Virus record (IMG/VR): IMGVR_UViG_3300017917_003643
Location: 1-39,642 of that record
Origin: a virus
Direction: 5' to 3' (one strand)
Length of the DNA stretch: 39,642 bases
Of the stretch, positions 3,526 through 33,694 are shown piece by piece (within the stretch, counting starts at the first letter, position 1; each line of letters starts with the position of its first letter). The position numbers and the translations under genes are program-made. A model generated the notes under the pieces. The model saw only the letters and a program-made list of their open reading frames with translations, was not told where the DNA came from and did no database searches.

Positions 3526-3540
3526 TACCAAAAAAGTTAT

Positions 3541-5312: not shown

Positions 5313-5318
5313 GGTTAT

Positions 5319-6793: not shown

Positions 6794-6795
6794 AT

Positions 6796-7194: not shown

Positions 7195-7199
7195 AAATT

Positions 7200-7508: not shown

Positions 7509-7511
7509 TGT

Positions 7512-8351: not shown

Positions 8352-8361
8352 AAATACTAAA

Positions 8362-9974: not shown

Positions 9975-9978
9975 AAAT

Positions 9979-10986: not shown

Positions 10987-10987
10987 T

Positions 10988-11263
10988 ATGGAAAATTTAG
11001 AACCAGTAACATTTAGTGAATTATTAGACAAACTAATAACAATCAATGTTAAACTATTTAATGTTTTAGATCGCTCAGCTTACTTAGATGGTTTAGAAAA
11101 AACTGAAGAAGTTAAAAATGAAATAGTTAAATTAAGTGGAGAAAATATTCGACTTGTAAAACAAAGAAGTTTTCTAAAATCATCAATTGATAAAAAATTA
11201 AATAATGCTATTAAAGAAGGTGGTACTCATATTTTAGATGAAGTTAAAAAATATAGCAAATAA
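10988..11263 (+). CDS. small helical protein, diverged DUF4254-like
   Basis: This 91-residue protein resembles the protein encoded at 7200 in length and helix pattern: FSELLDKLITINVKLFNVLD, then KLSGENIRLVKQRSFLKSSIDKKL. The signature R-N/S-x2-[IL]-x2-[IE]-[ID] helix is looser here (QRSFLKSSID). It lies 1 base after the SDR stop and shares its final A with the ATG of the aminotransferase. Both copies sit beside sugar-nucleotide genes. No activity can be assigned. Confidence 0.5.
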   Translation: MENLEPVTFSELLDKLITINVKLFNVLDRSAYLDGLEKTEEVKNEIVKLSGENIRLVKQRSFLKSSIDKKLNNAIKEGGTHILDEVKKYSK

Positions 11264-12363: not shown

Positions 12364-13340
12364 GAAAAAAAACAGCCCTAATAACAGGTATAAATGGGCA
12401 AGATGGTTCATATTTAGCTGAATTTTTATTAAATAAAGGATATGAAGTATGGGGAATATTAAAACGTAATTCTGTAGCTGAAAATCAGACAGCAAGAATT
12501 AATGATAGTATTTACTCTAAACTAAAATTAGAGTATGCTGATTTAACTGATTTAGCATCTTTAATTAGAGTAATACAAAAAATACAACCTGATGAGCTTT
12601 ATAATTTAGCAGCCCAATCCCATGTTAGAATATCATTTGATCAACCATTATATACAGTAAACACTACAGGTATAGGAGCGTTAAATGTACTAGAAGCAGT
12701 TAGAATGGTATCACCCTTTACTAAAGTATACCAAGCTAGTAGCTCAGAAATGTTTGGTAATTCAATTGATACTGACGGTTATCAAAGAGAAACAACACCT
12801 ATGAATCCTGTTTCACCTTATGGATGTGCTAAAGTATTTGCATATAACATAAGTAGAAACTACAGACACTCATATAATATGTTTATTTCTAATGGTATTC
12901 TATTTAATCATGAATCACCAAGAAGAGGGACTAATTTTGTGACTAATAAGATTTGTAAAGAAGCAGTTAAAATTAAATTAGGTTTATCAAATGAGCTAAA
13001 ATTAGGTAATTTAGAAGCAACTAGAGATTGGGGTCACGCTAAAGACTATGTTAAAGCAATGTGGGAAATTCTACAATTAGACAAACCAGATGATTTTGTT
13101 TGTGCTACAGGTATATCTCACTCTGTAAGAGAACTTTGTGAGTATGTGTTTTCTTCATTACATTTAGATTATAAAGAGTATGTAACTCAAGATGAAAAAT
13201 TTTTACGTCCTGAAGAATTACATAACTTAAAAGGAGATTCGTCTAAATTAACTAAAACAACAGGTTGGACTCATGATTATACTTTTGAATCAATGTTAGA
13301 TGAAATGATACAATATTGGTTAAATTACTATAAAAAATAA
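12360..13340 (+). CDS. gmd: GDP-mannose 4,6-dehydratase
   Basis: Gmd converts GDP-D-mannose to GDP-4-keto-6-deoxy-D-mannose using a bound NADP+. The sequence has TALITGINGQDGSYLAEFLL with the GxxGxxG loop (10-16), LAAQSHVRISFDQP, YQASSSEMFGNS with Ser/Glu of the active site (128-130), YGCAK with Tyr154 and Lys158, FNHESPRRGTNFVTNKI, and TRDWGHAKDYVKAMW. These are diagnostic of Gmd rather than of general SDRs. Length (326) is slightly below the usual 340-370. ATG overlaps the aminotransferase stop (ATGA). The product can feed fucose, rhamnose or perosamine branches; the aminotransferase and SDR nearby fit the latter two types of use. Confidence 0.9.
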   Translation: MRKKTALITGINGQDGSYLAEFLLNKGYEVWGILKRNSVAENQTARINDSIYSKLKLEYADLTDLASLIRVIQKIQPDELYNLAAQSHVRISFDQPLYTVNTTGIGALNVLEAVRMVSPFTKVYQASSSEMFGNSIDTDGYQRETTPMNPVSPYGCAKVFAYNISRNYRHSYNMFISNGILFNHESPRRGTNFVTNKICKEAVKIKLGLSNELKLGNLEATRDWGHAKDYVKAMWEILQLDKPDDFVCATGISHSVRELCEYVFSSLHLDYKEYVTQDEKFLRPEELHNLKGDSSKLTKTTGWTHDYTFESMLDEMIQYWLNYYKK

Positions 13341-13344
13341 ACAT

Positions 13345-14154
13345 ATGTTAACAGCTCAAGAAAGTCAAAATATGATAATAGATGCTATTATCAACCAAAA
13401 ACCTTTTTCTGTAGGTAAATTAGGGGCTGATGAGAGTAATAATTTATTTTCTCTTATTAATCATAATTTTGTTTCTTCCCGATTAACTATATTTTCTGGT
13501 GTTTTTCCTCTTGATGAAATCACTATTTCTTATTTTAAAAAAGAATATCTAAAAACTCTACCTAATTTAGATATATTACTAAGTTGGGCTCAACAATGGG
13601 GAGAGGATCAAATACTTTCTCATATTAAGTATAATAATTATAAAACTAAAGATTGGAAAGGAATTGAACCTTGGTTTATAGATGATAATTGGACTAATTA
13701 TTTAGGAGGAAAAAAAATATTAGTTGTCTCATCTCATGTTAACTCAATTAATCATCAATATCTTAATTTAGATAAAATATGGAATAGAAGACTATTTAAA
13801 AACAAATTTGAACTATATTTGCTTAAAGCTCCACTTCAACCTCAATTTGAACAATATCATAACTCATGGGTTGAAACACTAGAGTGGTTAAAACAAAGTA
13901 TTAAAGAAATAAATTTTGATGTTTTAATTGTAGGAGCTGGGGCTTATGGTTTACCATTAGCTGTGGAGGCTAAACGTTTAGGTAAAATAGGTATTCATTT
14001 AGGGGGTTCAATTCAAATATTATTTGGCTTAAAAGGTAAAAGATGGGACCAGTGGGAAGAATATCAAAATATATATAATGATTATTGGATTCGTCCTTTA
14101 GATATAGACACTCCTAAACAAAATTATATAATAGAAGAAGGTTGTTATTGGTAA
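13345..14154 (+). CDS. putative GT-D-like or polysaccharide-cluster protein
   Basis: A 269-residue protein with PFSVGKLGADESNNLFSL near residue 20-37 and FDVLIVGAGAYGLPLAVEAK followed by GKIGIHLGGSIQILFGLKGK at 190-235. The pairing of an N-terminal G-x-[GD]-E segment with a late G-A-x-A/G then 'ship-like' helix and IHLGG strand is the order seen in GT-D-fold transferases (DUF1792-like) and related capsule-cluster proteins. No metal-binding motif is certain. It lies 4 bases after gmd and 10 before the next gene. The function call is tentative. Confidence 0.5.
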   Translation: MLTAQESQNMIIDAIINQKPFSVGKLGADESNNLFSLINHNFVSSRLTIFSGVFPLDEITISYFKKEYLKTLPNLDILLSWAQQWGEDQILSHIKYNNYKTKDWKGIEPWFIDDNWTNYLGGKKILVVSSHVNSINHQYLNLDKIWNRRLFKNKFELYLLKAPLQPQFEQYHNSWVETLEWLKQSIKEINFDVLIVGAGAYGLPLAVEAKRLGKIGIHLGGSIQILFGLKGKRWDQWEEYQNIYNDYWIRPLDIDTPKQNYIIEEGCYW

Positions 14155-14164
14155 AAAATAAAAT

Positions 14165-14872
14165 ATGAAGTTACATTTATTAATAGATTATTATAAAAAT
14201 CCTTATCATGAAAGAGCAGAAGAGTTAGATTTTTGTTTTTTAGAAAATACTAATTCTAAAGAATTTGACTATACACATGTATTTAAATCTTCTCCTTTGC
14301 CTGAAGGTTACTCATCTGATAAAACTATAATTAATGAGGTTTCAACACGTTTAACATATCAATATTATTTTGATTACGCTAAAAATAACATTCCTGAAAA
14401 TGATATTATTGTATTATGCAATTCTGATATATTTTTTGATGAATCTATTTTATTAGTTAAAGAATTAGATTTATCAAATAAAGTATTAGCTTTAACTAGG
14501 TTTTGCCCTTATCATGGTCATTGGATTAATGAAGATAATATTGTAATTCCTTATGGAAATCAAGATCGATCACAAGATGTTTGGGTTTGGAAAAATCCTT
14601 TAAATATAAAAAATATTGATTTTAATTTTAATATAGGTGTATTAGGTTGTGATAATAAAATAACATATCAATTACATCAAGCTGGGTATCAAGTTTGGAA
14701 TCCTAGTTATTCTATCATATGTTACCATAAACATAAAGAAAGAGATGATGACAGAGACAGACAATATAAACCAAAACAATGGCTACCAGGCCCATATATG
14801 ATGGTAGACTCATGTTTAATAGAAAACATTAAAGATAAAAATTATAATTCTTATATATCAATTCATTCATGA
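14165..14872 (+). CDS. putative GT-A-fold glycosyltransferase
   Basis: The 235-residue product has NDIIVLCNSDIFFDESI at about 79-95, an acidic NSD-x2-F-D motif in the position of a GT-A DxD. Further on are NFNIGVLGCDNKITYQLHQA and GYQVWNPSYSIICYHKHKERDD, a G-C-D-N-[KR] acceptor segment and a conserved terminal H-x-H. The same order occurs in small glycosyltransferases of large viruses and phages. There is no membrane segment. It overlaps the following methyltransferase by 4 bases (ATGA). Confidence 0.6.
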   Translation: MKLHLLIDYYKNPYHERAEELDFCFLENTNSKEFDYTHVFKSSPLPEGYSSDKTIINEVSTRLTYQYYFDYAKNNIPENDIIVLCNSDIFFDESILLVKELDLSNKVLALTRFCPYHGHWINEDNIVIPYGNQDRSQDVWVWKNPLNIKNIDFNFNIGVLGCDNKITYQLHQAGYQVWNPSYSIICYHKHKERDDDRDRQYKPKQWLPGPYMMVDSCLIENIKDKNYNSYISIHS

Positions 14873-15564
14873 AAACAATTACAACATATGAAGATTTAAT
14901 CCAGGATCTTATTGACAATAAAATAACAATGGTAAGACCAGATGAATTTAAAACTATTTTTAATCATTTTAATAAAATATCTAAAGTAAGTGGAGATATT
15001 GTAGAGTGTGGAGTATGGAGAGGTGGATTCTCTATATTCTTAAGTCATGTTTTTCAAGATAAAAACATTTGGGTTTGTGACTCATTTGAAGGATTCCAAC
15101 CATTAGAAGAAGCTAAACATCAATATGATAAAGAAAGACACACACCATATTTCACTCATAACGCTGTTGGACCTTTGGCTATTAGTTTAGAAGAAGTACA
15201 ATCCCATTTTAAAACATATGGATTGGGAGAAGAAACACGAATTAAATTTTTAAAAGGATTTGTAAAAGATACTTTACCAACATCAGGAATTGAAAAAATA
15301 GCCTTATTAAGAATAGATGTAGATGCTTATTCAGCTACTCTAGAAACATTAGAAGAACTATATGATAAAGTTCAACCTGGAGGTTATATTATTTTTGATG
15401 ATTCTTGTTTATATGAAACATTGGATGCTATTAAAACATTCTTTAAACAAAGAAACTTCCCAGAATTCATTAACCATCCAGTGACAAATCAACCCCTAGA
15501 CATTAATTTAAGGCATACCAATGATGACTCAGGTTTACCAGCTGGTTGTTATATTGTAAAATAA
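14869..15564 (+). CDS. TylF/MycF-family O-methyltransferase
   Basis: TylF-type enzymes transfer methyl from S-adenosylmethionine to a sugar hydroxyl with a Mg2+ ion. In the 231-residue product VECGVWRGGFSIFL (45-58) is the SAM-binding motif, WVCDSFEGF (68-76) binds the adenosine ribose, LLRIDVDAYSATLETLEEL (about 145-163) and GGYIIFDDSC (about 170-179) supply the metal-binding Asp residues. Length matches the family. It most likely methylates one sugar of the glycan built by this island; the paired FkbM methyltransferase follows directly. Confidence 0.88.
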   Translation: MKTITTYEDLIQDLIDNKITMVRPDEFKTIFNHFNKISKVSGDIVECGVWRGGFSIFLSHVFQDKNIWVCDSFEGFQPLEEAKHQYDKERHTPYFTHNAVGPLAISLEEVQSHFKTYGLGEETRIKFLKGFVKDTLPTSGIEKIALLRIDVDAYSATLETLEELYDKVQPGGYIIFDDSCLYETLDAIKTFFKQRNFPEFINHPVTNQPLDINLRHTNDDSGLPAGCYIVK

Positions 15565-15575
15565 AAAGTTAATTT

Positions 15576-16157
15576 ATGAAAATAATTCAAATCGGAGCTA
15601 ATAATGGTAAAGACCATGTATTTGATCTTATAAAAGAAAATCAAAATTCTTTAGAATTAGCTATATTAATAGAACCAATACCTTTTATTATTAATGAACT
15701 AAAATCTCAATATGAAAATATAAATAATGTTATAGTAGAAAATATAGCTATAACAGATAATAAAGATATTAAAACAATGACTTTATATTATTTAGGAGAT
15801 AGTAATTATGAGGTGAGTTCATTTAGTAAAAATCATGTCATAACTCATAAGCCTCCTGGGTCTTCATATCCTTTAGAATCATTAGAAGTTTCATGCTTTA
15901 CAATTAATGATATTATGGATAAATATAATTTAGATATTATAGATTATTTATTTATAGATACTGAAGGGTTAGATGTACATATAATAGCTAGTATTGATTT
16001 TACAAAATATAAATTTAAAAATATTATATTTGAAGCAATTCATTCTGATGGAGCATTTAATATAGGTGAAAACTTTAATCAAACTTCTAAATACTTAAGT
16101 CACTTAGGATATAATTTATCTTCTTTAGATCAATTTAATATAAAAGCCAGTCTATGA
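15576..16157 (+). CDS. FkbM-family methyltransferase
   Basis: The 193-residue product begins MKIIQIGANNGKDHVFDLI, the class I SAM-binding loop, then ILIEPIPFIINEL where the acidic residue contacts the ribose. SLEVSCFTINDIMDKYNLDI followed by LFIDTEGLDVHII at about 125-137 is the F-I-D-x-E-G-x-D hallmark of FkbM proteins. It is shorter than many members (about 230-280) because the C-terminal extension is missing. FkbM proteins methylate sugars or peptides; here a sugar is most likely from context. The last 4 bases overlap the next gene. Confidence 0.85.
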   Translation: MKIIQIGANNGKDHVFDLIKENQNSLELAILIEPIPFIINELKSQYENINNVIVENIAITDNKDIKTMTLYYLGDSNYEVSSFSKNHVITHKPPGSSYPLESLEVSCFTINDIMDKYNLDIIDYLFIDTEGLDVHIIASIDFTKYKFKNIIFEAIHSDGAFNIGENFNQTSKYLSHLGYNLSSLDQFNIKASL

Positions 16158-16849
16158 AAATAATATACCGTATATCAGATGTTGGTTATAATAAAGTAAA
16201 ACCATCTTATATTAACAATGAAAATTGTTTAAAAAATGCTTTAGAAGTATTTCCATGGATAAAATATGATTGGTCTATTATAGCAGACAATATATCTGAG
16301 AAAACAAATGATATGATTCAAAAATATATTCCTAGAGATTATATTAATTATGTTTCTGTAGGTCATGGAGCAGGGACATTTAATTTAGCTTTGGATGAAG
16401 CATTACAAAGTCCCAATGATGAAATGATTTATTTCTTAGAGAACGATTATTTACATAAACCAGGATCAGATAAAATTCTTAAAGAAGGTTTTGAACTAGG
16501 GGCATCTTTTATATCATTATATGACCACCCAGACAAGTATATGAGCCCAGAACAAGGTGGTAATCCATATTGTGAAGGTGGAGCTGAAGATACTAGAGTG
16601 TACTTAACTAATTCTTGCCATTGGAAAATAACAAATAGTACAACTATGACATTTGCTTCTAAAGTATCAACTTTAAAACAAGTTGAACCTATTTTAAGAA
16701 ACTACACAATAGGGACCCACCCAAATGATTTTCCTATGTTTCTAGAATTAAGAGAACAAAACAAATTACTAATAACCCCGATACCAGGGTATTCAACTCA
16801 TGGAGAGACAGCTTGGTTATCACCATTAATAGATTGGAGTAAAATATGA
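16154..16849 (+). CDS. putative glycosyltransferase-like protein, GT-A type
   Basis: A 231-residue protein with an N-terminal strand KIIYRISDVGYNKVKPSY, a central acidic motif YFLENDYLHKPG at about 95-106 in the place of a GT-A DxD, and a C-terminal half with TNSCHWKITNSTTMTFASKV and HPNDFPMFLELRE. The ENDY-x-H motif followed by a conserved S-T-x-T-F strand is a pattern I associate with glycan-cluster proteins from viruses, without a named family. ATGA overlaps join it to both neighbours, so it is made together with the methyltransferase and the oxygenase. Confidence 0.5.
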   Translation: MKIIYRISDVGYNKVKPSYINNENCLKNALEVFPWIKYDWSIIADNISEKTNDMIQKYIPRDYINYVSVGHGAGTFNLALDEALQSPNDEMIYFLENDYLHKPGSDKILKEGFELGASFISLYDHPDKYMSPEQGGNPYCEGGAEDTRVYLTNSCHWKITNSTTMTFASKVSTLKQVEPILRNYTIGTHPNDFPMFLELREQNKLLITPIPGYSTHGETAWLSPLIDWSKI

Positions 16850-17481
16850 AAAAGATTGATTATAACATTAATGATTTTCCTTTTAAACAAAAATTAGAGG
16901 AATTATTTCAAATAAATGAATTATCTAGTTTAAATGACAATATAGAAGTATTTACTAGAGAAAAAGATCAAAGTACTAATTGGCATAAATTATTTTATGA
17001 ATACGCTCGCACTGAGGGGTTTATTCAATTGTATGATAAGTTTATTTTAGAGGTTATTAAACCACTTTATAATGAACAAATAGTATATCAAGCTATTCCT
17101 ACTTTTAGAGTATGTTATCCTAATAATATAGCTGTAGGTGAATTCCATAAAGATAAACATTATAGAAATGGAGAATGGGCCGCTAAAGTAAAAGAAGATA
17201 ATTTCTTTTTACCATTTACAGATGCCTTTGATACAAATACCATTTGGGCTGAATCAGAAGAAGATAGGGGTGATTTTGCTCCTATGAATTGCAATTATGG
17301 AGAGTGTATACAATGGGATGGATGTAATTTAACACATGGTAATAAAATTAATTCAACTGGTAAAGCTAGAATAAGTGTTGATTTTAGAGTTATTAAATAT
17401 TCAAATTACATACCTAGTGAACATAGTTCAATCAATACAAAAATTAAATTCCAAATTGGAGGTTATTATAAAACAATATGA
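16846..17481 (+). CDS. 2-oxoglutarate/Fe(II)-dependent oxygenase, StrG-like
   Basis: The 211-residue product contains EFHKDKHYRNGEW with His101 and Asp103 as the proximal iron ligands (HxD) and NLTHGNKINSTGKARISVDF with distal His164 and Arg175 for 2-oxoglutarate. FLPFTDAFDTNTIWAESEE lies between them, as in StrG-like streptomycin-cluster oxygenases, which have the same HKD-x-H-Y block. Such an enzyme could hydroxylate or oxidise a sugar of the glycan. It is linked by 4-base overlaps to the genes on both sides. The family match is good; the substrate is unknown. Confidence 0.8.
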   Translation: MKKIDYNINDFPFKQKLEELFQINELSSLNDNIEVFTREKDQSTNWHKLFYEYARTEGFIQLYDKFILEVIKPLYNEQIVYQAIPTFRVCYPNNIAVGEFHKDKHYRNGEWAAKVKEDNFFLPFTDAFDTNTIWAESEEDRGDFAPMNCNYGECIQWDGCNLTHGNKINSTGKARISVDFRVIKYSNYIPSEHSSINTKIKFQIGGYYKTI

Positions 17482-18248
17482 TAAGTGTAATTATACCAAC
17501 ATATAAAGCGCCTGAGATTCTTGACCTATGCCTTGAATCAGCTATTAAAGGACAACAAAATAAAAATCAAATTATTGTTGTAGTAGATGGTTTTTATGAT
17601 TTAAATAAAGAAGTACTTAAAAAGTGGTCTGAGTATATTGATGTTTTAAACTTAGAAGAAAATGTAGGTACAGTTAGAGCTACTAACTTAGGTGTATTTA
17701 ATGCTCAATATGATAAGATATTAATTGTTAATGATGATAATGTATTTCCTAAAAATTGGGATATTAAATTAGAAGAAAAATATCAACCTGGGTGGGTGTT
17801 TGCTCCAAATCAAATTGAACCTTACCCAAGTATGTTTCCCCAATTTAATATTAAAGATTTAGGGCGTGATCATAAAACATTTAACTTAAAAACATTTTGG
17901 GAGTATGAAGATAGTTTATCTATAGATAAAGTTGAATTTAATGGTTCTACATTTCCTATTTTTATAGATAAATTAGATTTTCTTAAAATAGGTGGATTTG
18001 CTGAAGACTATCCATCACCAAGTGGTTTTGTAGCTGATTGGGAATTTTTTATGAAATGCCAAATGAATGGACTTCAGATGGTGAGAACATATAACTGCCA
18101 TTTTTATCATTTTGTTTCAGTAAGTGCTAAAACTCATGAACAGTTAGAAATAGCGAAGCAGTATGAATATAATTGCCATGAATATGCTAAATATAAATGG
18201 GGTCATTATATTAAACATAACCCACAAAATAATTTAAAGTTTTTGTAA
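17478..18248 (+). CDS. glycosyltransferase, GT2 family
   Basis: The 256-residue product has all key parts of a GT2 enzyme: ISVIIPTYKAPEILDLCLES at the N terminus, QIIVVVDGFYD for nucleotide binding, NVGTVRATNLGVFNAQYDKI as the N-x-G-x2-[RK]-A-x-N-x-G motif, and ILIVNDDNVFPKNW at about 76-89 with the DxD-type acidic pair. FIDKLDFLKIGGFAEDYPSP near 165-185 is the acceptor-site G-G-F-D/E segment. No membrane helix is present. It is the last gene of the glycan island; 53 bases later a new promoter-led unit begins. Confidence 0.88.
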   Translation: MISVIIPTYKAPEILDLCLESAIKGQQNKNQIIVVVDGFYDLNKEVLKKWSEYIDVLNLEENVGTVRATNLGVFNAQYDKILIVNDDNVFPKNWDIKLEEKYQPGWVFAPNQIEPYPSMFPQFNIKDLGRDHKTFNLKTFWEYEDSLSIDKVEFNGSTFPIFIDKLDFLKIGGFAEDYPSPSGFVADWEFFMKCQMNGLQMVRTYNCHFYHFVSVSAKTHEQLEIAKQYEYNCHEYAKYKWGHYIKHNPQNNLKFL

Positions 18249-24058: not shown

Positions 24059-24294
24059 AAGCAAAATTAACATTTGATTTAAATGATCTGGATGATCGTA
24101 TGGAACATGAACGTTGTGTGAAATCAACTGACATGGCCATTGTATTATGGGAATTAATGACTAACTCATACCGTGGTTTAACTAATGGTTATGATGAAGA
24201 TGATGGTTATCATAAAGGTGTAGATGCTGTTTATGACCATCTAAAATCATTATTGTATGAACATAATATTGATGTTGATAAATTAATCCGATGA
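24055..24294 (+). CDS. hypothetical protein
   Basis: A 79-residue protein: MKAKLTFDLNDLDDRMEHER, then CVKSTDMAIVLWELMTNSYR and an acidic middle (NGYDEDDGYHKG) before a final helix. The F-D-L-x-D-x-x-D/E-R-x2-H/F opening and S-x-D-M-A-x-x-L-W-E helix recur in phage proteins of unknown role. ATGA overlaps on both sides. Confidence 0.65.
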   Translation: MKAKLTFDLNDLDDRMEHERCVKSTDMAIVLWELMTNSYRGLTNGYDEDDGYHKGVDAVYDHLKSLLYEHNIDVDKLIR

Positions 24295-24821
24295 GTCTAA
24301 TTAATACTTTCACTTACCCATTTAGGGATTTTTATAGGCGTGTACGTAATGTATTACGTTGGTTACCAACCATTTGGAATGATAGAGACTGGGATCATAG
24401 CTACATAAATGAAATCTTAATCAGGAAGCTTGAATTTACCCGAGACTTCTACCTATCAGATAAACCCTACAGTTCGGAGGCTAAAAGAACTGCTGATGAG
24501 ATTCAAGAAGCTATTTCCCGTCTCCATCAAACTAAAGACTCATGGGAGTTCTATGAAGACCCAGCTTTGGAACAACTAGAACTGAAGTGGGGTCGAACAA
24601 CTCTCAAAGCTATACCCTACGAGTATGCTGAGGATGGTAGTGTTTTAACTTATCAAATGGAAACGGTATACGATACAGAAAAAGTTCATACACCTGAACA
24701 GAAGGAACAGTATTCAAAAGAGTACCTTGAAATTATGAAACAAGCTCGTAAAGACTATATAAAGGATAAAATTAAAGCATATAAATTTATAGCTAAAAAT
24801 ATAGACAAATGGTGGGACTAA
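24291..24821 (+). CDS. hypothetical protein
   Basis: The 176-residue product has LRWLPTIWNDRDWDHSYINE followed by ILIRKLEFTRDFYLSDKPYS in a long helix, then DEIQEAISRLHQTKDSWEFY. Proteins with this W-x2-D-R-D-W-D-x2-[YF] segment followed by a K-[LM]-[EK]-x5-[FL] helix are common in phages but unassigned. The end overlaps the next gene by 13 bases. Confidence 0.65.
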   Translation: MSLINTFTYPFRDFYRRVRNVLRWLPTIWNDRDWDHSYINEILIRKLEFTRDFYLSDKPYSSEAKRTADEIQEAISRLHQTKDSWEFYEDPALEQLELKWGRTTLKAIPYEYAEDGSVLTYQMETVYDTEKVHTPEQKEQYSKEYLEIMKQARKDYIKDKIKAYKFIAKNIDKWWD

Positions 24822-25195
24822 AAAAGAAACTAACATTATGGTGGGAAAAGAAAACTAACTTTAATCCGTATGGTGTTTGGCCTGAAGGTGCTTGTCCTGT
24901 ACAAGCTGAAGGTTATACTAAAGATGGTAACTGGTATTATTTTAGAGCTAGAGGCAGTCATATTCGATTTGTTATCTGTAAATCAGAGGATGATTATACT
25001 GGGTTAATTGAGTCTCCAACTAAGTATTTATTTGAGCGAGAATTAGAATATGGTGATGGTATATTCCAGGCAGGTTGGATGAAACATGAAGACGCTGTTC
25101 GTTTAGTGACAGTATGGTTAAATGAGTATTATGATGAAACTCAAACACTTAAAATATCTAGAAAAGCGAAAAAATGGTTGAACAAACTGAAATAA
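24809..25195 (+). CDS. hypothetical protein
   Basis: A 128-residue, beta-rich protein: FNPYGVWPEGACPVQAEGYT, NWYYFRARGSHIRFVICKSE and YGDGIFQAGWMKHEDAVRLV. It overlaps the preceding gene by 13 and the GH16 gene by 22 bases. It could be a regulator or partner of the GH16 enzyme by position alone. No family is recognised. Confidence 0.6.
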   Translation: MVGLKKKLTLWWEKKTNFNPYGVWPEGACPVQAEGYTKDGNWYYFRARGSHIRFVICKSEDDYTGLIESPTKYLFERELEYGDGIFQAGWMKHEDAVRLVTVWLNEYYDETQTLKISRKAKKWLNKLK

Positions 25196-25863
25196 AATTC
25201 TCAGGTTATAAATGGCAATCAGGGAATAGATGGGGTAATTATCATCCTAAAAATCCCACATATTGGTGTGACCCATCATGTGTAGATGTTACTGGTGGTG
25301 TTTTGCGTTTACAAACCAAACGTCATAAAATAGTAACCTCAGATGCAGGAGTAATTGATATTGGAGTTGGGTTAGTGACATCAATAGATGATTTTAGTTA
25401 TGGTAGATTTGAAGCTGAAGTAATGCTACCTAAAGGTACAGGTTTATTTCCTGCATTTTGGTTATGGGCTTCAGATAGTTGGCCACCTGAAATTGATATA
25501 TTTGAAGGTTGGAGTCGTAAAAATGGTCTATATACTTCAAAATGTATTCCTTATTTTAGTTTAGCTTCAAATGTTCATTATGGAGATTCAAATTATACTC
25601 ATAAATCAATCAAATCCAAATCTCATATGATTTGGAAAAGATTTGATAGATGTTATACTAAATTTGAATTAGATTGGTACCCAGATGAAATTATTATCTC
25701 ATATGACAATATGGTTGTGAGGAGAGTCACTGATGTAGAGATACTTAACTGGTTTGAAGGTAAAACAATGCAGGTTGTTTTTAATAATGGAGTAGATAAA
25801 CCATCTGAATACACTAATGACTCAGTGATGTTGGTTAAAAACTTTAAATACACAGAATGGTAA
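25174..25863 (+). CDS. glycoside hydrolase family 16 (beta-glucanase-like)
   Basis: GH16 enzymes cut beta-1,3 or beta-1,4 linkages in laminarin, lichenan, agar or carrageenan by retention. The 229-residue product has YGRFEAEVMLPKGTGLFPAF (76-95), then FWLWASDSWPPEIDIFEGWS with the catalytic E-I-D-I-x-E block: Glu106 nucleophile, Asp108, Glu111 acid/base. FELDWYPDEIIISYDNMVV near 168-186 is the second conserved strand pair. The length is that of a bare catalytic domain. No signal peptide is visible, so either the protein acts on the virion (tail depolymerase) or it is released at lysis. It overlaps both neighbours (22 and 7 bases). Confidence 0.82.
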   Translation: MVEQTEIKFSGYKWQSGNRWGNYHPKNPTYWCDPSCVDVTGGVLRLQTKRHKIVTSDAGVIDIGVGLVTSIDDFSYGRFEAEVMLPKGTGLFPAFWLWASDSWPPEIDIFEGWSRKNGLYTSKCIPYFSLASNVHYGDSNYTHKSIKSKSHMIWKRFDRCYTKFELDWYPDEIIISYDNMVVRRVTDVEILNWFEGKTMQVVFNNGVDKPSEYTNDSVMLVKNFKYTEW

Positions 25864-26399
25864 GAAAATTACTATTGATTTTGTTTTTATTAGGAACAAT
25901 AACTGGTTACAGCCAATCACGACGCCCTAAAAACACTAAAAAACCTACTATACAGGATGTGATCACTGAAAAGAAAACACCTGAAGATATTCTTAAAGAA
26001 GTTTATAAAGCTAGGCTTGATTCAGCATCTCAGTTTTCATATACTTGTATGCAGTACTTAGTTGAGACTAAAGTTGAGTTAGATAGTGTTAAAAAAGCAA
26101 ATCAAATGCTTTATGTTTTAATTGATAGACAATTAGACTCACTTGCCTCATCTCGTAATAAAGAAAAACGAGCTATGAAATTAATGTTAAAAGAACATTA
26201 TAGAAAAAAAGCATGGATTAAAGCATTTTTTGGTCAAACCGTTTTAGTAGCTGGAGCAGTAGGTGCTTTTATAACAGGCGCTTGGGTTCCAATAGGAATG
26301 GCAGTAGGTGCTTTTGAATTAATGTTAATAATAGAAAGCAAGTATAGTAATGTTAAATTAGAAGATAATAAACAAGAATCAAAACGATATAAAATTTAA
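25857..26399 (+). CDS. exported coiled-coil protein with C-terminal membrane segment, spanin-like layout
   Basis: The 180-residue product starts with a signal sequence (VRKLLLILFLLGTITGYSQS), followed by a charged helical region with LKEVYKARLDSASQF and YTCMQYLVETKVELDSVKK, another helix (LIDRQLDSLASSRNKEKRA), and a long hydrophobic C terminus (VLVAGAVGAFITGAWVPIGM). It is a paralogue of the protein encoded at 36213: both share YK-x2-LDS-x6-Y-x-C-x-x-YL and the same signal-coil-membrane order. Proteins anchored at both ends of the periplasm are typical of spanins, which fuse inner and outer membranes in phage lysis. There is no lipobox cysteine. Confidence 0.6.
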   Translation: MVRKLLLILFLLGTITGYSQSRRPKNTKKPTIQDVITEKKTPEDILKEVYKARLDSASQFSYTCMQYLVETKVELDSVKKANQMLYVLIDRQLDSLASSRNKEKRAMKLMLKEHYRKKAWIKAFFGQTVLVAGAVGAFITGAWVPIGMAVGAFELMLIIESKYSNVKLEDNKQESKRYKI

Positions 26400-26403
26400 A
26401 ATT

Positions 26404-26574
26404 ATGATAAATACAATTGTTAGTTTACTTATTCTAGGGTTTGGATTGAATTATTATTTCAAATACCAAAACCTTAAAAAACAAATGTCTACACCTGTAG
26501 CTACTCCAACTGGTGATGAACCAAATGATAATCCTCAAGTAACAAGTGTACCTGAAAAACAAATTGGAGATTAA
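26404..26574 (+). CDS. small single-pass membrane protein (56 residues)
   Basis: ATG at 26404 opens a 56-residue frame whose TAA shares its last A with the ATG of the next gene. Residues 2-19 (INTIVSLLILGFGLNYYF) form a membrane helix; the rest (KYQNLKKQMSTPVATPTGDE and a Pro/Asp/Asn-rich tail) is disordered and polar. It is in the middle of an exported-protein block, but its job is unknown. Confidence 0.6.
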   Translation: MINTIVSLLILGFGLNYYFKYQNLKKQMSTPVATPTGDEPNDNPQVTSVPEKQIGD

Positions 26575-26915
26575 TGAGACAGTTTTTATTATCTTTATTT
26601 TTAGTACTCACATCATTAATTGCTTTCACCCAATGTGATACTTGTGGAGAATTTTACATCCCAAACGCATTTACTCCAGACGGTGATCGTGATAATGATG
26701 TGTTTGATCTTACACATTTAATACTTGATCAACCCATATTAAAGATATTTGATAAATGGGGAAATAAAATATATGAATCAAATGATTTATATTGGACTGG
26801 TGATGGCGGTACAGGATATTATGGTAATAATGATGTATATGTTTGGGTAGTAGAGTATAAAGATAAAGATGGTTTTCCTAAAATTCAAAAAGGGTTTGTA
26901 ACTCTCATAAGATAA
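26574..26915 (+). CDS. secreted T9SS type B sorting-domain (CHU_C) mini-protein
   Basis: The 113-residue product is a signal peptide (about 1-19, RQFLLSLFLVLTSLIAFT) directly followed by a complete gliding-motility-associated C-terminal domain: YIPNAFTPDGDRDNDVFDL, ILKIFDKWGNKIYESND and YVWVVEYKDKDG, ending GFVTLIR. That domain is the type B sorting signal by which Bacteroidota proteins leave through the type IX secretion system. Normally it sits at the end of a protein of several hundred residues. Here there is no cargo except about 8 residues (CDTCGEFY). It may be a decoy, a competitor for the T9SS, or a plug. The gene sits just before the thymidylate synthase promoter. Confidence 0.8.
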   Translation: MRQFLLSLFLVLTSLIAFTQCDTCGEFYIPNAFTPDGDRDNDVFDLTHLILDQPILKIFDKWGNKIYESNDLYWTGDGGTGYYGNNDVYVWVVEYKDKDGFPKIQKGFVTLIR

Positions 26916-26926
26916 TATTATATTAA
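26895..26926 (+). promoter_or_regulatory. phage promoter, TTTGTA-N18-TATATTAA
   Basis: TTTGTA (26895-26900) and TATATTAA (26919-26926) with an 18-base spacer. The first block overlaps the last codons of the CHU_C gene; the thymidylate synthase ATG is at 26942. Confidence 0.6.
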
Positions 26927-26941
26927 GATAAATAATAAGTT

Positions 26942-28216
26942 ATGCTTTTAGAATCACAATACAAACAATGGTTAGCGGAAAACCCAGGACACTATCTTAC
27001 CTACGATGAATGGTTTAGTAAGTGGGGAGAAATCAACAATCTACCTATAGATGCTGAGCTGTACATACCATTCATTTCAGACGACTTCCAAATTGGACCT
27101 AATGGTGCTTATGAACGTGTAGGTAATGATTTAGATATAGCATACCAAGACCTACTTCAAGACATTTTAGACAATGGAGTAGAAAAAAAAGATCGAACAG
27201 GCACAGGTACGCTATCAGTATTCGGAAGACAAATCAGACATAAAATGTCAGATGGCTTTCCATTGCTCACAACTAAAAAGATGGCTTGGAAAACAATGGT
27301 AACTGAGTTGTTATGGTTCTTGAGAGGTGATACAAACATTAAGTTCCTTGTTGATAACAATTGTCATATTTGGGATGGTGATGCTTATAAGAATTACCAT
27401 AAGCAATGGATGAAAGAAGAAGACCAGTATATGAGGAATTTTAATTCTTTACTACCACCAGAGTTAGTAAAAGAAAGAGATATGACTAAAGAAGAATTCA
27501 TCAACAAAATCAAAACGGATGATGAGTTTGCTAAGCAGTGGGGTGAATTAGGACCAATTTATGGAGCACAATGGAGAAACTGGTCAAATGTTCCTGGTGA
27601 AGAAAATAAAGGTGGTAAGGACCAAATCGCAAACCTAATCTCTGAACTCAAAACAAATCCTGATTCAAGACGACTAATGGTTTCAGCTTGGAATGTAGGT
27701 GAATTAGACCAAATGGTGTTACCTCCTTGTCACTATAGTTTTCAAGTTTATACAAGAGAGTTAACTTGGGAAGAGCAGGTTCATTGGGTATTGAAAAACA
27801 CTAATGTTGAATTAGAGAATGTTTATATTGTAGAAGAAATTGCTAAACCCTCAACACCAACCAGAGCAATCTCTTTAATGTGGAATCAAAGATCAGTAGA
27901 TACATTCTTAGGCTTACCATTCAACATTGCTAGTTATGGTTTACTACTTGAAATCATTGCTAAAGAAGTAAATATGATACCTGAGGAGTTGATTGGTAAT
28001 TTAGGTGATGTACATTTATATTCAAATCATATTGAACAAGCAAAAGAACAAATCAGTAGAACACCTTATGAGTTGCCTAAGTTATATATTAGTAGTGAGT
28101 TTTGGAATCATAAGTATCAAACAATAGACGGATGGATTAAGAGTATGGAGATAGAAGATTTTCAAGTAGAAGGTTATCAATCACACCCAACAATTAAAGC
28201 ACCATTATCAAATTAA
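26942..28216 (+). CDS. thyA: thymidylate synthase with N-terminal extension and extra insertion
   Basis: ThyA methylates dUMP to dTMP with methylenetetrahydrofolate. The core is intact: RTGTGT (85-90), GELGPIYGAQWRNW (201-214), DSRRLMVSAWN (241-251), catalytic Cys263 in LPPCHYSFQVY, RSVD (317-320) and GLPFNIASYG (324-333). Length is 424 against 264-316. There is an extra N-terminal segment of about 64 residues (SQYKQWLAENPGHYLTYDEW and following). The R-to-Cys distance (178) matches the long Lactobacillus-type enzyme. Between Cys263 and Asp320 there are about 34 extra residues (WEEQVHWVLKNTNVELENVY), which normal enzymes lack. A dedicated promoter precedes it. Phages carry ThyA to raise dTTP supply. 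Confidence 0.92.
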   Translation: MLLESQYKQWLAENPGHYLTYDEWFSKWGEINNLPIDAELYIPFISDDFQIGPNGAYERVGNDLDIAYQDLLQDILDNGVEKKDRTGTGTLSVFGRQIRHKMSDGFPLLTTKKMAWKTMVTELLWFLRGDTNIKFLVDNNCHIWDGDAYKNYHKQWMKEEDQYMRNFNSLLPPELVKERDMTKEEFINKIKTDDEFAKQWGELGPIYGAQWRNWSNVPGEENKGGKDQIANLISELKTNPDSRRLMVSAWNVGELDQMVLPPCHYSFQVYTRELTWEEQVHWVLKNTNVELENVYIVEEIAKPSTPTRAISLMWNQRSVDTFLGLPFNIASYGLLLEIIAKEVNMIPEELIGNLGDVHLYSNHIEQAKEQISRTPYELPKLYISSEFWNHKYQTIDGWIKSMEIEDFQVEGYQSHPTIKAPLSN

Positions 28217-28222
28217 TAAGTT

Positions 28223-28522
28223 ATGACATACGAAAATTTTTTAAAAATAACGCTTGAGTTACAAAAACAAGAGCGCATTGTAGACAACTTGTATAAAAAC
28301 AAAGTTGACCTACTTGAGTTTATAGATCCGTATCACGGTTTAATTCATTTACTGATTAAAGAGATCTATGGTGAGGAAGGTGTTGATTGGTTTTCTTGGT
28401 TTTGTTATGAGAATGATTATGGTCAAGGCACATTAGAGGCATGGGATAAAAATAAAAATCCAATTTGTTATGATTTTAAATCGTTGTGGGAGTTTTTAGA
28501 AAAACTTAGGTTGAAGGCTTAG
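28223..28522 (+). CDS. hypothetical protein, paralogue of the 18471 gene
   Basis: This 99-residue protein has IHLLIKEIYGEEGVDWFSWF, CYENDYGQGTLEAWDKNKNP and DFKSLWEFLEKLRLKA. It shares the ordered pattern (Y-G-x-E, W-x2-Y-x-x-D, L-x-[AK]-[WL], L-W-x-[LF]) with the 129-residue protein at 18471. It reads as a small alpha/beta protein. The gene follows thyA by 6 bases, so it likely shares the thyA promoter. Confidence 0.65.
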   Translation: MTYENFLKITLELQKQERIVDNLYKNKVDLLEFIDPYHGLIHLLIKEIYGEEGVDWFSWFCYENDYGQGTLEAWDKNKNPICYDFKSLWEFLEKLRLKA

Positions 28523-28536
28523 TCTTCATATATGTA
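28506..28536 (+). promoter_or_regulatory. weak promoter candidate, TTAGGT-N17-TATATGTA
   Basis: TTAGGT (28506-28511) and TATATGTA (28529-28536) with 17 bases between them are a degraded match to the phage promoter. The site lies just before the lipoprotein gene and its leader hairpin. Confidence 0.25.
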
Positions 28537-28575
28537 TAATAAATAAAACCACATTTGTTGTGAGTTAAATCTTAA

Positions 28576-28600
28576 GGTTTTGGGAATACACTTCAAAACC
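28576..28600 (+). promoter_or_regulatory. hairpin abutting the lipoprotein start codon
   Basis: GGTTTTG (28576-28582) and CAAAACC (28594-28600) pair perfectly around an 11-base loop, and the ATG of the lipoprotein begins at 28601. This would place the start codon at the base of the stem and could limit translation. Confidence 0.4.
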
Positions 28601-28942
28601 ATGAAAAAGATATTTCCCACACTAACCCTCCTGATAGCAATGCTGTCACTCACTTCTTGTGCTATTCAACAAGAAATTGAAATCATTAAAGATAGAAAAC
28701 AAAAAACTGAACATTTTGTCCATCACAGACAAACTGTTAAAGACGGCTTGTTTTCTAAAAATCGCAAACTAAGAGTACGCCACAGGTATTTTTATCATGA
28801 TATAGATGATAATAAATGGTACTTTAGACCTACTCCACAGTGGCCTGATTTTATACACTACAAGAGAACTGGTGGTGTTAAAGGCACTGGGGGTAAGGTT
28901 AGAGTGATTAAAAGGGCTACTGTTGCTAAACCTACTAAGTAA
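28601..28942 (+). CDS. lipoprotein of unknown function
   Basis: The frame can be opened by TTG at 28580, but the ATG at 28601 gives a proper lipoprotein signal: MKKIFPTLTLLIAMLSLTSC with lipobox L-T-S-C, lipidated Cys20. The mature part is short and very basic (about 93 residues; IKDRKQKTEHFVHHRQTVKD, KNRKLRVRHRYFYHD) and ends with a Gly/Lys/Thr tail. A small basic lipoprotein could be an o-spanin or a superinfection-exclusion protein; neither is proved, and the lysis genes are 6 kb away. Confidence 0.65.
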   Translation: MKKIFPTLTLLIAMLSLTSCAIQQEIEIIKDRKQKTEHFVHHRQTVKDGLFSKNRKLRVRHRYFYHDIDDNKWYFRPTPQWPDFIHYKRTGGVKGTGGKVRVIKRATVAKPTK

Positions 28943-29053: not shown

Positions 29054-31342
29054 ATGAAAAAATTAATTTCCGTTCTGTTATTAACTGTTTTTTCAATTGT
29101 AAGTTTTTCTCAAAACTTAGCTGAAAATGTTAATAACCAAGTCATTTTAAAATACAAGCAAGGTACTCCCTATAGACTTGTAGATGCATTCACTGAATTT
29201 TACAATGTTCCTGTAGTTGCTCAATTTGATCAACTTGGAATGATTGTGGTACAATTTACTGGTAACTATGATGATTTCTATAAAAACTGCTCCGACAGTG
29301 ATTTATTTGACATTATTGAAAGAAACCAAGTTCAAGAAATGAAAATGGATTACATTCCAAATGATCCTGAATTTGCTACTAGTTGGCATCTACGTCAAGC
29401 ATCTGATAGAGATATTGATGCTGATGAAGCTTGGGATTTACTTCCAACTGAAAACCAATGGGTATCAGTAGCAATGTTTGATGGTGGTTTGGATATGACA
29501 ATGCCTGAATTTGTAGGTAATGTTGATAGTCCATTCAACGCTGTTAATGGTACAAGTGCTATCCCATATGTTAACTCTGAAGATAAGCATGGTACAGCTT
29601 GCTCAGGCACAATTGCGGCTAGAACCAATAATGGTATTGGTGTTAGTAGTGTAGGTAATAACTTTGTGAGAGTTATGCCTGTTAATATTATGTCTCAGGT
29701 ATATGCAGGTGGTAGTTTCGCTACTAACTCTGCTATTCAAATTGCTGCTGTTAATGCTGCTATGAATAATCCAAATTGTGTTGCTATTGCTATGTCATAT
29801 GGTGGTAGTAGTTACTCAGCCGCTTTAGAAGCTGCTTTTCAATCTGCTAGAGTGAACGGCAGAGGTGGAAAGGGAATGATGGTGTTTGCCTCTTCAGGTA
29901 ATGGTTATTCAGGTACAGCAGCTCAATACCCAGCTAATTATAATGGTGTTTGGGGAGTTGGTGCTACTACAAGTTCAGATGTTAGAGCCTCATTTTCTAA
30001 TTTTGGCCAAATTTGTGACATTTCAGCCCCCGGGTCAGGAATCAGAACAACTGACCGTTTAGGTGCTGATGGTTACAATACTACTGATTACACTTCAATT
30101 AGCGGTACTTCATTTAGCTGCCCAATTACAGCAGCTGCTTCAGCAGTTATAGCTTATAAAAACTGGGAACTAACTGATGATGAAATTTTAGCTATATTAT
30201 CCGCCACTTGTGAAAAAGTAGGTGGTTATACTTATTCTAATAATCCTGCTTGGCCATTAAGTACTCGTAGTAATGAATTAGGATACGGACGTATTAATCT
30301 TAAAGATGCTGTTATTGCTACTCCTAACCCAGGTGGTACACCTCCTCCTCCACCCCCAGTGTTAGTTTCTAACTACACAGTTAATAGTGTAACAGTAACA
30401 CCTACTAGTGTTAATTTAGGAGAAACTATCTTAGTGAATTATAATGCTATGGTAGCTGAAGAACTTAATGTAACATCCACTTTTGCTACTTTTGTAAAAG
30501 TACAATACCGCTACTCAGCTAATTCTATTTATGGTGACTCAGATGATATTATTATTGGAATTGACAGTGTAGGTTTAGGTGGAGGAATTAACTCAGTAAC
30601 TAAATCATTTTCATATAATGTAGGAGGGATGGCAGGTACACGTTATATGTTTGTGACAATTAATTATGATAATGCTGTTGAAGAGTCTATTATCACAGAC
30701 AACACTAGCTTTAAAGCATTTAATGTCACTAATCCATCTATGTCAGGTACAGATGTTAGAATTGAATTAGTACAACCTGTAGCTAATCCTTGGACTACAT
30801 CTTTACAAATTGTAAATACACAATGGAGAGCTGTCAATACAGGTACTGTTCCTATCACTCAAATTAACTATACTAGACGTTGGGTTGATTGCACAGCAGC
30901 ATTTGGATGTATAACCAATTCAACTTGGACTGGTAACCTACTACCAGGTCAATCAACACTATTACCTGCTAACAATACTTATGTTAGTATCAATTTATGT
31001 CATCCAACACGATGTGCTGTTCCTGTAGGTGCTTCAAACACGTTTAGACTTGATGTTGTAAGTGTAAATGGTAGCACAGGTGACGCTGATTTGACTAACA
31101 ATAGACTTGATTTAGTATTTAATAGAATTAGCACTACCCAAGAAGAAATCATTGGTAATTATCCTTTAATAGATGATCCAAATGCTATTTTAGTAGAAGA
31201 TGACTATCCTGTCTCTATAGATATTTATACCATATCAGGTGCATTGTTAGATATCAATCGTTACAATGAATTACCTAGTGGTATGTACATCTTAAAAGCG
31301 AATTATTTAGACCACACTGAAACATTTAAGTGGGCTAAATAA
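29054..31342 (+). CDS. secreted subtilase (S8) with CARDB-like region and T9SS type A-like tail
   Basis: The 762-residue product has a signal peptide (KKLISVLLLTVFSIVSFSQ), a propeptide-like region to about 110, then a subtilisin domain with Asp143 (AMFDGGLDM), His179 (EDKHGTACSGT), the oxyanion region near 280 (ASSGN) and Ser353 (GTSFSCPITA). A Pro-rich linker (about 430, GGTPPPPPPV) leads to two CARDB-like beta domains (about 440-690). The end (YPVSIDIYTISGALLDI, ELPSGMYILKANY, ETFKWAK) resembles the type A sorting tail (Por_Secre_tail) of T9SS cargo. The protein should therefore be exported to the host surface or medium and digest proteins there. It is larger than any virion protease I know. 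Confidence 0.85.
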   Translation: MKKLISVLLLTVFSIVSFSQNLAENVNNQVILKYKQGTPYRLVDAFTEFYNVPVVAQFDQLGMIVVQFTGNYDDFYKNCSDSDLFDIIERNQVQEMKMDYIPNDPEFATSWHLRQASDRDIDADEAWDLLPTENQWVSVAMFDGGLDMTMPEFVGNVDSPFNAVNGTSAIPYVNSEDKHGTACSGTIAARTNNGIGVSSVGNNFVRVMPVNIMSQVYAGGSFATNSAIQIAAVNAAMNNPNCVAIAMSYGGSSYSAALEAAFQSARVNGRGGKGMMVFASSGNGYSGTAAQYPANYNGVWGVGATTSSDVRASFSNFGQICDISAPGSGIRTTDRLGADGYNTTDYTSISGTSFSCPITAAASAVIAYKNWELTDDEILAILSATCEKVGGYTYSNNPAWPLSTRSNELGYGRINLKDAVIATPNPGGTPPPPPPVLVSNYTVNSVTVTPTSVNLGETILVNYNAMVAEELNVTSTFATFVKVQYRYSANSIYGDSDDIIIGIDSVGLGGGINSVTKSFSYNVGGMAGTRYMFVTINYDNAVEESIITDNTSFKAFNVTNPSMSGTDVRIELVQPVANPWTTSLQIVNTQWRAVNTGTVPITQINYTRRWVDCTAAFGCITNSTWTGNLLPGQSTLLPANNTYVSINLCHPTRCAVPVGASNTFRLDVVSVNGSTGDADLTNNRLDLVFNRISTTQEEIIGNYPLIDDPNAILVEDDYPVSIDIYTISGALLDINRYNELPSGMYILKANYLDHTETFKWAK

Positions 31343-31780: not shown

Positions 31781-33694
31781 ATGAAACACTTATTTGCTAT
31801 TTTAATGCTTCTGGCCACAGTAGTTGGTCAAGCACAGTATCTCGCTGGTGCGGTTGATACAACATTTATTCTTAATAATGACGGAGTTCCATTCTCTACT
31901 AACGGCTATTTAAGAGCTATGGGAGTAGAAGTAGTTGGTAACTCCGTTTATTATGCTTTTGCTACTAGTCCCGGGTTGCCTGCTATTCGAAAGTATGACT
32001 TTCAAGGTAATGAGGATGAGAGTTGGTATACTAATCAAATGTCAACTTGGGGTGCTCAATTTGCTACTGTATGTTTAGAAACTGAAAAAGATGCCACTGG
32101 TAATTATACTGGTGGTTTCTTTATTAGCGGTAGAAATAGCTTTAACTCTATGGTTAACCAAGGTGTTAGATTTTTAAATAAAATCAATGCTGATGGTACT
32201 AGAGATTTAAACTTTGTTTGTCCTATTACAAGCTGGATTAGTATTTGCTCTGCTATTTATCATGATTGGGAGAATAATAAATTATATTATGCTTACCAAA
32301 ATGGTAGTAGCACTACCCAAACAATTGTTTGCTGTGACCCAAACACAGGCCAAACCTTACAAACACTTACAATTCCCGGATCAAATGGAATGGTTAGCAA
32401 AATTGCTAAAATTCCAAATAGTAATGATCTTATAATTGGAGGTAATGTTAGCTTTGCTTATAACGGGCATGACTATGTTAGCTTATTTAAATTAACAGAA
32501 CAATTCACTATTGCCCCACTTGAAGGTATCACAGATTTACCTTGTAGCTTTGTAGTGTCTGATTTATTGTTTGTTAATGATATTGATTGTGCTGGTAATG
32601 GAAATGGCTCAATTAAAGCCTATATTGCTGGGGGTGGAAGCCAAATGTCAGGTGTTAGTGGTCTTAGAGGAATTGCTCGCTTTACCTTAAACAATGGAGT
32701 ATGGAGTATTGATAGTAATTATAATGCGGGTTGTAGTGGATCAATTAGTGATATTGTTTATTATAACTGTCACTTAATTGCCACTGGTAACTTTGCTTCT
32801 TCAATGCCTGCTGGTCCTTATGCTCCATCTTGGTCTCCTAAAGTGACTGCTTTTACAAGTGAAGGACAACTTAGCCCTGAATTTAAAACTCAAAATATTG
32901 GATATGGCTTAGGAGGAGTATATGTATCTGGGCTTGAAAACAGCTTTGGTCAGGGATCAGGTAGATGTTTAGCTGTTAATCCAAATGATGATGGTAATGA
33001 CAGATGGGAGATATTTGTTGGAGGTACTTTTGTTAATGTAATACAATTAGCCCAACCTCGTAATGTAATTAAGCATGTTAATTTTACCGCTAAACTATAT
33101 GGATTTAGAAATACAGTTGACCCTAATTTCTCATACTGCTTAGATGGTAATACTATATCAACATTTGATATGGCTAGCACTACAGGATGTGAAAAATGGG
33201 AATTATTTTCCTCTACTAATCCACTAGCAGGTTGGAATTTAATTAGAACAGAAACAACTCATGATTTCACTGATACCACTTTAGTTGAAGGTGTATGGTA
33301 TAGACTTGTTAGAACAGTAACTGAATGTGGTAACTCATGCTCTTATGGATATATTATTTATAGAGATGTAGCTAATTGCAACCCATCACATAATGGAACT
33401 GAATTAAGATCATTAGTAGTTAAACCTGATCCAATAACTAAACCTCAAGAAACAACCCCATCTGATATTTCATTATATCCAAACCCAACTTCAGGATTAG
33501 TGACTATAAATGATGATTTTAAAGGAGCATTCAGAAATATAGATGTATACAATTCTTTAGGTACTAAAGTATTAAGTACAACTACTAATATAGATGCTTA
33601 TCAATTGAACATGGATGAACTTCCTAGTGGAGTGTACATGATTGTAGTAACTACTAAAGATGATGTTAAAAAACAGCAGATAATTAAAGAATAA
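31781..33694 (+). CDS. secreted delta-60-repeat protein with T9SS type A tail
   Basis: The 637-residue product has a signal peptide (KHLFAILMLLATVVGQAQ), a large beta-propeller-like body with delta-60 repeat units (AGAVDTTFILNNDGVPFSTN, SGRNSFNSMVNQGV then FLNKINADGTRDLNF), and a complete type A sorting domain in the last 80 residues (SLYPNPTSGLVTINDDF, IDVYNSLGTKVLS, ELPSGVYMIVVTT). The sorting domain makes export by the type IX secretion system and attachment or release at the cell surface very likely. Delta-60 proteins are often adhesins or surface layers. The gene is followed by a promoter-led unit. Confidence 0.85.
   Translation: MKHLFAILMLLATVVGQAQYLAGAVDTTFILNNDGVPFSTNGYLRAMGVEVVGNSVYYAFATSPGLPAIRKYDFQGNEDESWYTNQMSTWGAQFATVCLETEKDATGNYTGGFFISGRNSFNSMVNQGVRFLNKINADGTRDLNFVCPITSWISICSAIYHDWENNKLYYAYQNGSSTTQTIVCCDPNTGQTLQTLTIPGSNGMVSKIAKIPNSNDLIIGGNVSFAYNGHDYVSLFKLTEQFTIAPLEGITDLPCSFVVSDLLFVNDIDCAGNGNGSIKAYIAGGGSQMSGVSGLRGIARFTLNNGVWSIDSNYNAGCSGSISDIVYYNCHLIATGNFASSMPAGPYAPSWSPKVTAFTSEGQLSPEFKTQNIGYGLGGVYVSGLENSFGQGSGRCLAVNPNDDGNDRWEIFVGGTFVNVIQLAQPRNVIKHVNFTAKLYGFRNTVDPNFSYCLDGNTISTFDMASTTGCEKWELFSSTNPLAGWNLIRTETTHDFTDTTLVEGVWYRLVRTVTECGNSCSYGYIIYRDVANCNPSHNGTELRSLVVKPDPITKPQETTPSDISLYPNPTSGLVTINDDFKGAFRNIDVYNSLGTKVLSTTTNIDAYQLNMDELPSGVYMIVVTTKDDVKKQQIIKE

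Follow-up and report, generated by a model that had tools for sequence, protein, structure and literature searches.

The CHU_C mini-gene and its product

The DNA analysed here (the window) is the 39,642-nucleotide viral record IMGVR_UViG_3300017917_003643 of IMG/VR, taken over its whole length. Its subject of interest is an open reading frame (ORF) of 113 amino acids (aa) in which a signal peptide is followed almost directly by a CHU_C domain, the type B C-terminal domain (CTD) of the type IX secretion system (T9SS). The gene and its neighbours are arranged as follows.

25857..26399, plus strand: 180-aa ORF with a signal peptide, a charged, helical-looking stretch and a hydrophobic C-terminal segment; a relative lies in another viral record, L158
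26404..26574, plus strand: 56-aa ORF with a hydrophobic segment at its N-terminus; its stop codon overlaps the ATG of the mini-gene
26574..26915, plus strand: the CHU_C mini-gene, a 113-aa ORF with an ATG start, made up of signal peptide, linker and CHU_C domain
26574..26633, plus strand: signal peptide MRQFLLSLFLVLTSLIAFTQ (residues 1-20), homologous to that of 550- and 513-aa relatives
26634..26657, plus strand: eight-residue linker CDTCGEFY (residues 21-28), spanning the cargo-deletion junction, where the relatives have 400-437 residues more
26658..26906, plus strand: CHU_C (T9SS type B) C-terminal domain (residues 29-111), from a profile match and a predicted structure
26942..28216, plus strand: thymidylate synthase (thyA), the conserved flank downstream of a variable slot

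By its domain, the window protein belongs to CHU_C. The first-pass annotation, made from the letters alone, had read the ORF as a signal peptide, about eight residues and a complete CHU_C domain, and this was confirmed: Pfam PF13585 (CHU_C) matches residues 29-111 over profile positions 3-86 of 86 with 47.7 bits (E = 1.8e-12), against a curated cut-off of 27 bits, so that the objection of a missing profile match falls away. The NCBIfam type B sorting domain model TIGR04131 aligns end to end with residues 29-113 (to profile position 85/85), although its 32.8 bits lie slightly under the cut-off of 35. The domain sits at the extreme C-terminus (residues 29-111 of 113) and retains GFVTLIR as its canonical end, together with every conserved position of CHU_C.

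An AlphaFold2 model built from an alignment of 79 viral CTDs predicts four strands (residues 52-59, 65-69, 87-96 and 102-111), with a pLDDT of about 92 over residues 28-113. The type B CTD has been predicted to form a four-strand sheet (PMC12618676), and the matching strands make the model consistent with that published fold. Among viral models, the top fold matches are annotated as gliding-motility C-terminal domains. The fold search of the PDB gave weak matches to translocon-bound T9SS CTDs (E 0.004-0.06), which ranked behind beta-sandwich domains of unrelated surface proteases and are supportive only, and a sequence search against solved proteins returned no meaningful homology for the window protein.

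The hydrophobic N-terminus, homologous to that of long forms of the protein, is a predicted Sec signal peptide and, as read from the sequence, lacks a lipobox. Its removal would leave a mature product of 93 residues. What lies ahead of the CTD amounts to 8 residues, compared with 400-489 more in the relatives, and since this cargo is missing the window protein is not a normal T9SS substrate.

Origin from a long phage surface protein

In the closest IMG/VR relatives, L001 (550 aa) and L002 (513 aa), the gene likewise follows a 56-aa ORF and precedes thyA; L002 has the stop/start overlap of the window, and the two genes overlap in L001 as well. These two proteins and that of the window have in common a signal peptide of the form MR[HQ]FLLSLFL..., the whole C-terminal domain (60-69% identical between the window and L001/L002) and an identical end, KIQKGFVTLIR, and both the upstream overlap and the downstream flank of the window gene can be aligned with the relatives at the nucleotide level. 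Relative to L001 and L002 the window gene lacks 400-437 residues, and relative to the more distant long members L004, L005 and L007 (602 aa) it lacks 489, with the frame kept in each case. In a phylogeny built from 138 viral CTDs, the window sequence is nested within the long-protein clade and paired with L001 (support 100/82). This nesting, together with the shared locus, signal peptide and C-terminus, shows the direction of change, from long form to bare form, and on these sequence comparisons the window gene is the product of in-frame cargo loss from a phage-encoded surface protein. The lost cargo is predicted in the long relatives to be all-beta, with an N-terminal domain (a low-confidence model), Cys-rich DDGSC repeats and Ig-like domains (pLDDT about 80-90).

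Three other origins were rejected. The signal peptide and CTD differ throughout from those of L001 and L002, which rules out an assembly chimera of two long homologues; the ORF is in frame and open, which rules out a frameshifted remnant; and both halves are nearest to one long-protein clade, which rules out a CTD recombined from another family.

The domain of the window copy has diverged considerably, differing from L001 at 27/91 positions. A codon model put omega at 0.17 for the window branch and at 0.033 for the remaining branches; the window value is below 1 at p=0.046, though part of this branch may precede the deletion. Scored with a model of viral CTDs, the window domain reached 80.5 bits, whereas neutral simulations started from L001 and given as many amino-acid changes as the window averaged 49.8 (standard deviation 7.7, maximum 68.7, n=400). 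The omega below 1 and a score above all 400 simulations indicate that the CHU_C fold was constrained during most of the divergence. The copy has none of the stops, frameshifts or neutral substitution of a pseudogene, and the gene appears still to be kept by selection as a CHU_C fold, though it may recently have begun to decay.

Two further observations concern the domain and its surroundings. Over window positions 24291-28942, synonymous divergence from L001 is a mosaic: it is about 1.1 within the CHU_C domain, 0.4-0.6 in the pair of genes immediately upstream and 0.1-0.3 downstream, a pattern that suggests recombination around the CHU_C slot. In addition, a Cys stands shortly before the domain in almost every long or mid-size viral CHU_C protein, often accompanied by another within it (for example ESC...GYYC in L001). 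The pair, as scored, is found in 0/11 bare forms from other viral records (see below), and in the window protein (relevant residues 21, 24 and 84) the inner Cys is replaced by Gly; this looks like convergent disulfide loss in the bare forms and the window.

The window is best taken as part of the genome of a T4-like phage, since the contig of the related L032, 163 kb long, encodes a Gp23 capsid protein of the T4 type along with a terminase. Upstream of the slot, a glycoside hydrolase family 16 (GH16) gene without a signal peptide (25174-25863) occurs also in L030 and L047 and is not at that place in L001 and L002. A 64-aa ORF that precedes thyA in L001, L002, L030 and L032 is missing from the window (26916-26941); it has the string AAGTTATG at both ends, and its deletion between these short direct repeats is therefore likely. 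Farther downstream are genes for a subtilisin-like protease whose type A tail is weak (29054-31342; 15.3 bits, under the cut-off) and for a 637-aa protein bearing an unambiguous type A sorting domain (31781-33694); several products of the phage thus seem to make use of the host T9SS. Positions 2089-18248 hold a surface-glycan cluster with glycosyltransferases, two nucleotide-sugar epimerases, an aminotransferase and a GtrB-like protein. A search for a PorP/SprF carrier gene gave no match in phage records and none in the control genomes either, and is uninformative.

Stand-alone CHU_C proteins in other viral records

Motif- and profile-guided scans gathered 131 complete viral CHU_C ORFs, and 11 of these are bare forms of 107-112 aa, counted from the methionine of the signal peptide (L047, L074, L151, L156, L158, L166, L175, L180, L188, L200 and L232). 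Five further short candidates (L026, L029, L097, L109 and L230) are cut at the 5' end and were excluded from the count. The 11 fall into two clades, of four sequences (support 100/96) and seven (100/98), and the window sequence is in neither; as these two tree-placed groups are separate from the window, the bare architecture arose several times. A twelfth bare form, 116 aa long, comes from the phage record LR756502.1 (642 kb), in which an 898-aa CHU_C protein is encoded as well. All nine of the twelve bare forms that were tested exceed the Pfam CHU_C cut-off. The unsaturated pairs, in the seven-member clade, have ratios of nonsynonymous to synonymous substitution (dN/dS) of 0.08, 0.29 and 0.26, and in such close pairs these values show purifying selection on bare forms outside the window.

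Intact bare proteins of signal peptide plus CHU_C therefore form at least three further groups in viral records. On the contig of L232, which is 149 kb long and encodes Gp23 and a terminase, no CHU_C was detected besides the bare gene, and the same holds for the contigs of L074 (66 kb) and L158 (99 kb). L047 comes from a relative of the window phage, as judged from shared neighbours, and its bare CTD is unrelated and occupies a different slot. In the phage reference collection, matches are limited to two huge-phage records, with no isolated phage among them. The BFVD model A0A8D9CF28 (108 aa, uncultured marine phage), annotated as a 'putative lyase', matches the bare CHU_C model over its full length (TM 0.71, E 1.5e-7) and is probably a misannotated bare CHU_C protein. 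The open-access literature searched yielded no account of a phage protein consisting of a type B CTD without cargo.

For comparison, bacterial genomes were scanned with the bare family as query, and the best 80 loci were kept, with 56 complete CHU_C ORFs. None of these 56 nearest cellular ORFs is bare, and two, of 144 and 146 aa, are near-bare. The viral and cellular samples are both capped and non-random, and the following figures are indications only: bare forms make up 11/131 viral against 0/56 cellular ORFs (p=0.036), the domain is preceded by a median of 312 residues in viral and 908 in cellular proteins, and no more than 130 residues precede the domain in 29/78 viral proteins (the motif-based sample only) against 2/56 cellular ones (p=2e-6).

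A second viral size class was seen in the same samples. Proteins of about 176-211 aa, consisting of a signal peptide, one Ig/PKD-like domain (about 75 residues) and CHU_C, form a tight group with 31/131 viral and 0/56 cellular members (L006, L045, L046, L052, L056, L058, L059, L065, L067, L069, L094, L107, L110, L115, L117, L119, L123, L125, L134, L139 and others). PKD-type secreted proteins without a CTD adjoin CHU_C genes in L006 (5153-5710 and 6284-7429) and L007 (4-1152), and all of these have in common the C-terminal signature PTIS(P/L)ISH(N/D).

The first-pass annotation had regarded the isolated tag as an inhibitor or decoy, and that interpretation is partly supported. Its homologues are not merely frameshifted remnants, the window copy being an in-frame deletion and intact, conserved bare proteins being present in at least three other viral groups, and its suggestion to look for stand-alone CHU_C proteins in other phages led to the 11 ORFs and the one in LR756502.1. 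The in-frame deletion and the intact bare forms of other viral groups make a functional minimal protein plausible. Isolated tags thus recur in viruses, while the inhibitor or decoy role would be a further step, one made more plausible by published carrier data (PMC12618676).

Possible titration of T9SS carriers and comparison with known systems

Type B substrates do not use PorV and require a cognate PorP/SprF-like barrel, whose native level is too low for overproduced type B substrates and limits their secretion, and stoichiometric, non-recycled use of these carriers was inferred by the authors of that study (PMC12618676). Type B CTD proteins remain bound to PorP/SprF barrels at the surface (PMC9143113). 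Moreover, F. columnare mutated in gld/spr genes, which serve gliding and the T9SS, resists phage (PMC9233685), and a role as phage receptor has been suggested for the gliding machinery (PMC7345892).

We tentatively favour, as a possibility short of an even chance, that the window encodes a stand-alone type B sorting domain of a T4-like Bacteroidota phage, which arose by in-frame cargo loss, is under selection and ties up PorP/SprF-type carriers. The domain, its origin by deletion, its constraint and the recurrence of bare forms are established above, whereas export, carrier binding, titration and benefit are inferred, as follows. The bare protein would be made during infection and, given its signal peptide, exported by Sec to the periplasm, where its CTD, judging from the domain, could be offered to the SprA/Sov translocon and PorP/SprF-type carriers. 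As type B carriers are scarce and apparently used once per substrate, a small, cheap and abundant CTD without cargo, being the least that could fill a carrier, would occupy them and deplete the pool. Fewer host type B proteins, among them the gliding adhesins on which many flavobacterial phages depend, would then be exported, and the likeliest benefit would be the exclusion of competing phages or the prevention of adsorption to debris and sister cells. The broader claim, that cargo-less type B CTDs evolved again and again in Bacteroidota phages to serve as dedicated T9SS/gliding inhibitors that consume single-use PorP/SprF carriers, we consider doubtful.

Several observations weigh against carrier titration by the window protein. 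Carrier pairing is specific, and a phage CTD would need to match the carriers of its host. In F. johnsoniae, 150-235 residues are required for type B secretion to be efficient (PMC12618676), and the mature protein has only 93. The 113-aa allele is known from a single sequence, and omega on the window branch is raised about five-fold over the long forms (p=0.025), which indicates relaxed selection. The slot itself is variable: in L030, which shares the GH16 gene of the window, the 56-aa ORF is followed directly by the 64-aa ORF preceding thyA, and at the same place L032 has an unrelated ORF of 93 aa and L033 an ORF of 227 aa. No CHU_C was found on the contigs of L030, L032 and L033, and with the slot empty or otherwise filled in these three the CHU_C gene is an accessory, moron-like one.

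The main rival for the window copy, rather unlikely in our view, draws on the same facts: an accessory surface-protein gene would be in the course of being lost, the deletion would be in frame by chance (one in three), and the product would be functionless, whatever bare forms do elsewhere. Such decay would fit the variable slot, with the gene wholly absent in so close a relative as L030, the relaxed selection, the loss of a second small adjoining gene relative to L001/L002, and the internal domain losses that also distinguish L001 and L002 from the 602-aa form. However, the frame is open, the signal peptide and the translational overlap with the upstream gene are intact, the CHU_C score lies far above the neutral simulations, and convergent bare forms elsewhere are under purifying selection; the omega below 1 also argues against decay, with the marginal p value and the possibly older branch noted above.

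It is less probable still that the protein is productively secreted and sits as a cap or label on PorP/SprF-type barrels, marking or shielding the cell or carrier while host export goes on unblocked. Targeting information does reside in CTDs (PMC12618676), and PG1035 has been proposed as a cap (PMC9143113), but PG1035 itself is about 50 kDa and no bare CTD, and the minimal efficient type B signal reported is longer than the window protein (PMC12618676). A 93-residue protein may bind and yet be poorly secreted, which would suit a blocker and not a surface label. Very unlikely, finally, is a role outside the T9SS, with the fold reused in the periplasm, for example together with neighbouring envelope- or lysis-type genes: the bare gene of L158 lies directly 3' of genes that by eye resemble a lysis cassette, with a relative of the window ORF 25857..26399 immediately 5' of it (28% identity, E 3e-8, pairwise search), and one bare clade has SIH, VIH or VML in place of LIR at its end, but the window copy keeps the canonical end and conserved positions, and the remaining bare genes have other neighbours.

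In Bacteroidota, the surface is reached mainly through the T9SS, which is also linked to gliding and phage adsorption. A minimal phage-made type B signal would be a tool for asking whether carriers are consumed one per substrate, how short a workable signal can be and whether phages shut off host surface export. Should carrier titration hold, cargo-less CTDs would be, to our knowledge, the first phage-encoded T9SS inhibitors. Were the window copy a remnant, it would still hold that bare CHU_C recurs in unrelated viral records and that viral CHU_C proteins are generally shorter than their cellular relatives, a pattern that was not found in the literature searched.

With known T9SS type B substrates, such as SprB of Flavobacterium johnsoniae and PG1035 of Porphyromonas gingivalis, the window protein shares an N-terminal signal peptide, a C-terminal CHU_C domain, the conserved motif positions and the predicted four-strand fold. 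Those substrates are far larger (about 50 kDa for PG1035 and 669 kDa for SprB; PMC9143113) than its cargo-less mature form, and unlike them it is phage-encoded, with no carrier gene adjoining. The bare CHU_C proteins of other viral records have the same architecture and size (107-116 aa) and belong to other CTD lineages. The long phage forms L001 and L002 agree with the window in locus, signal peptide and CTD, and together with L004, L005 and L007 they differ from it by their all-beta cargo with Ig-like domains and Cys-rich repeats. Cryophage T9SS cargo likewise consists of phage genes that use the host T9SS and vary between variants, with superinfection among the suggested roles, but there type A signals are borne by enzymes (endoglucanase, GH39, PA14) and the cargo is present (PMC7468147). 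Phage-encoded type A T9SS cargo is thus already known, and a cargo-less type B CTD in a phage appears to be new.
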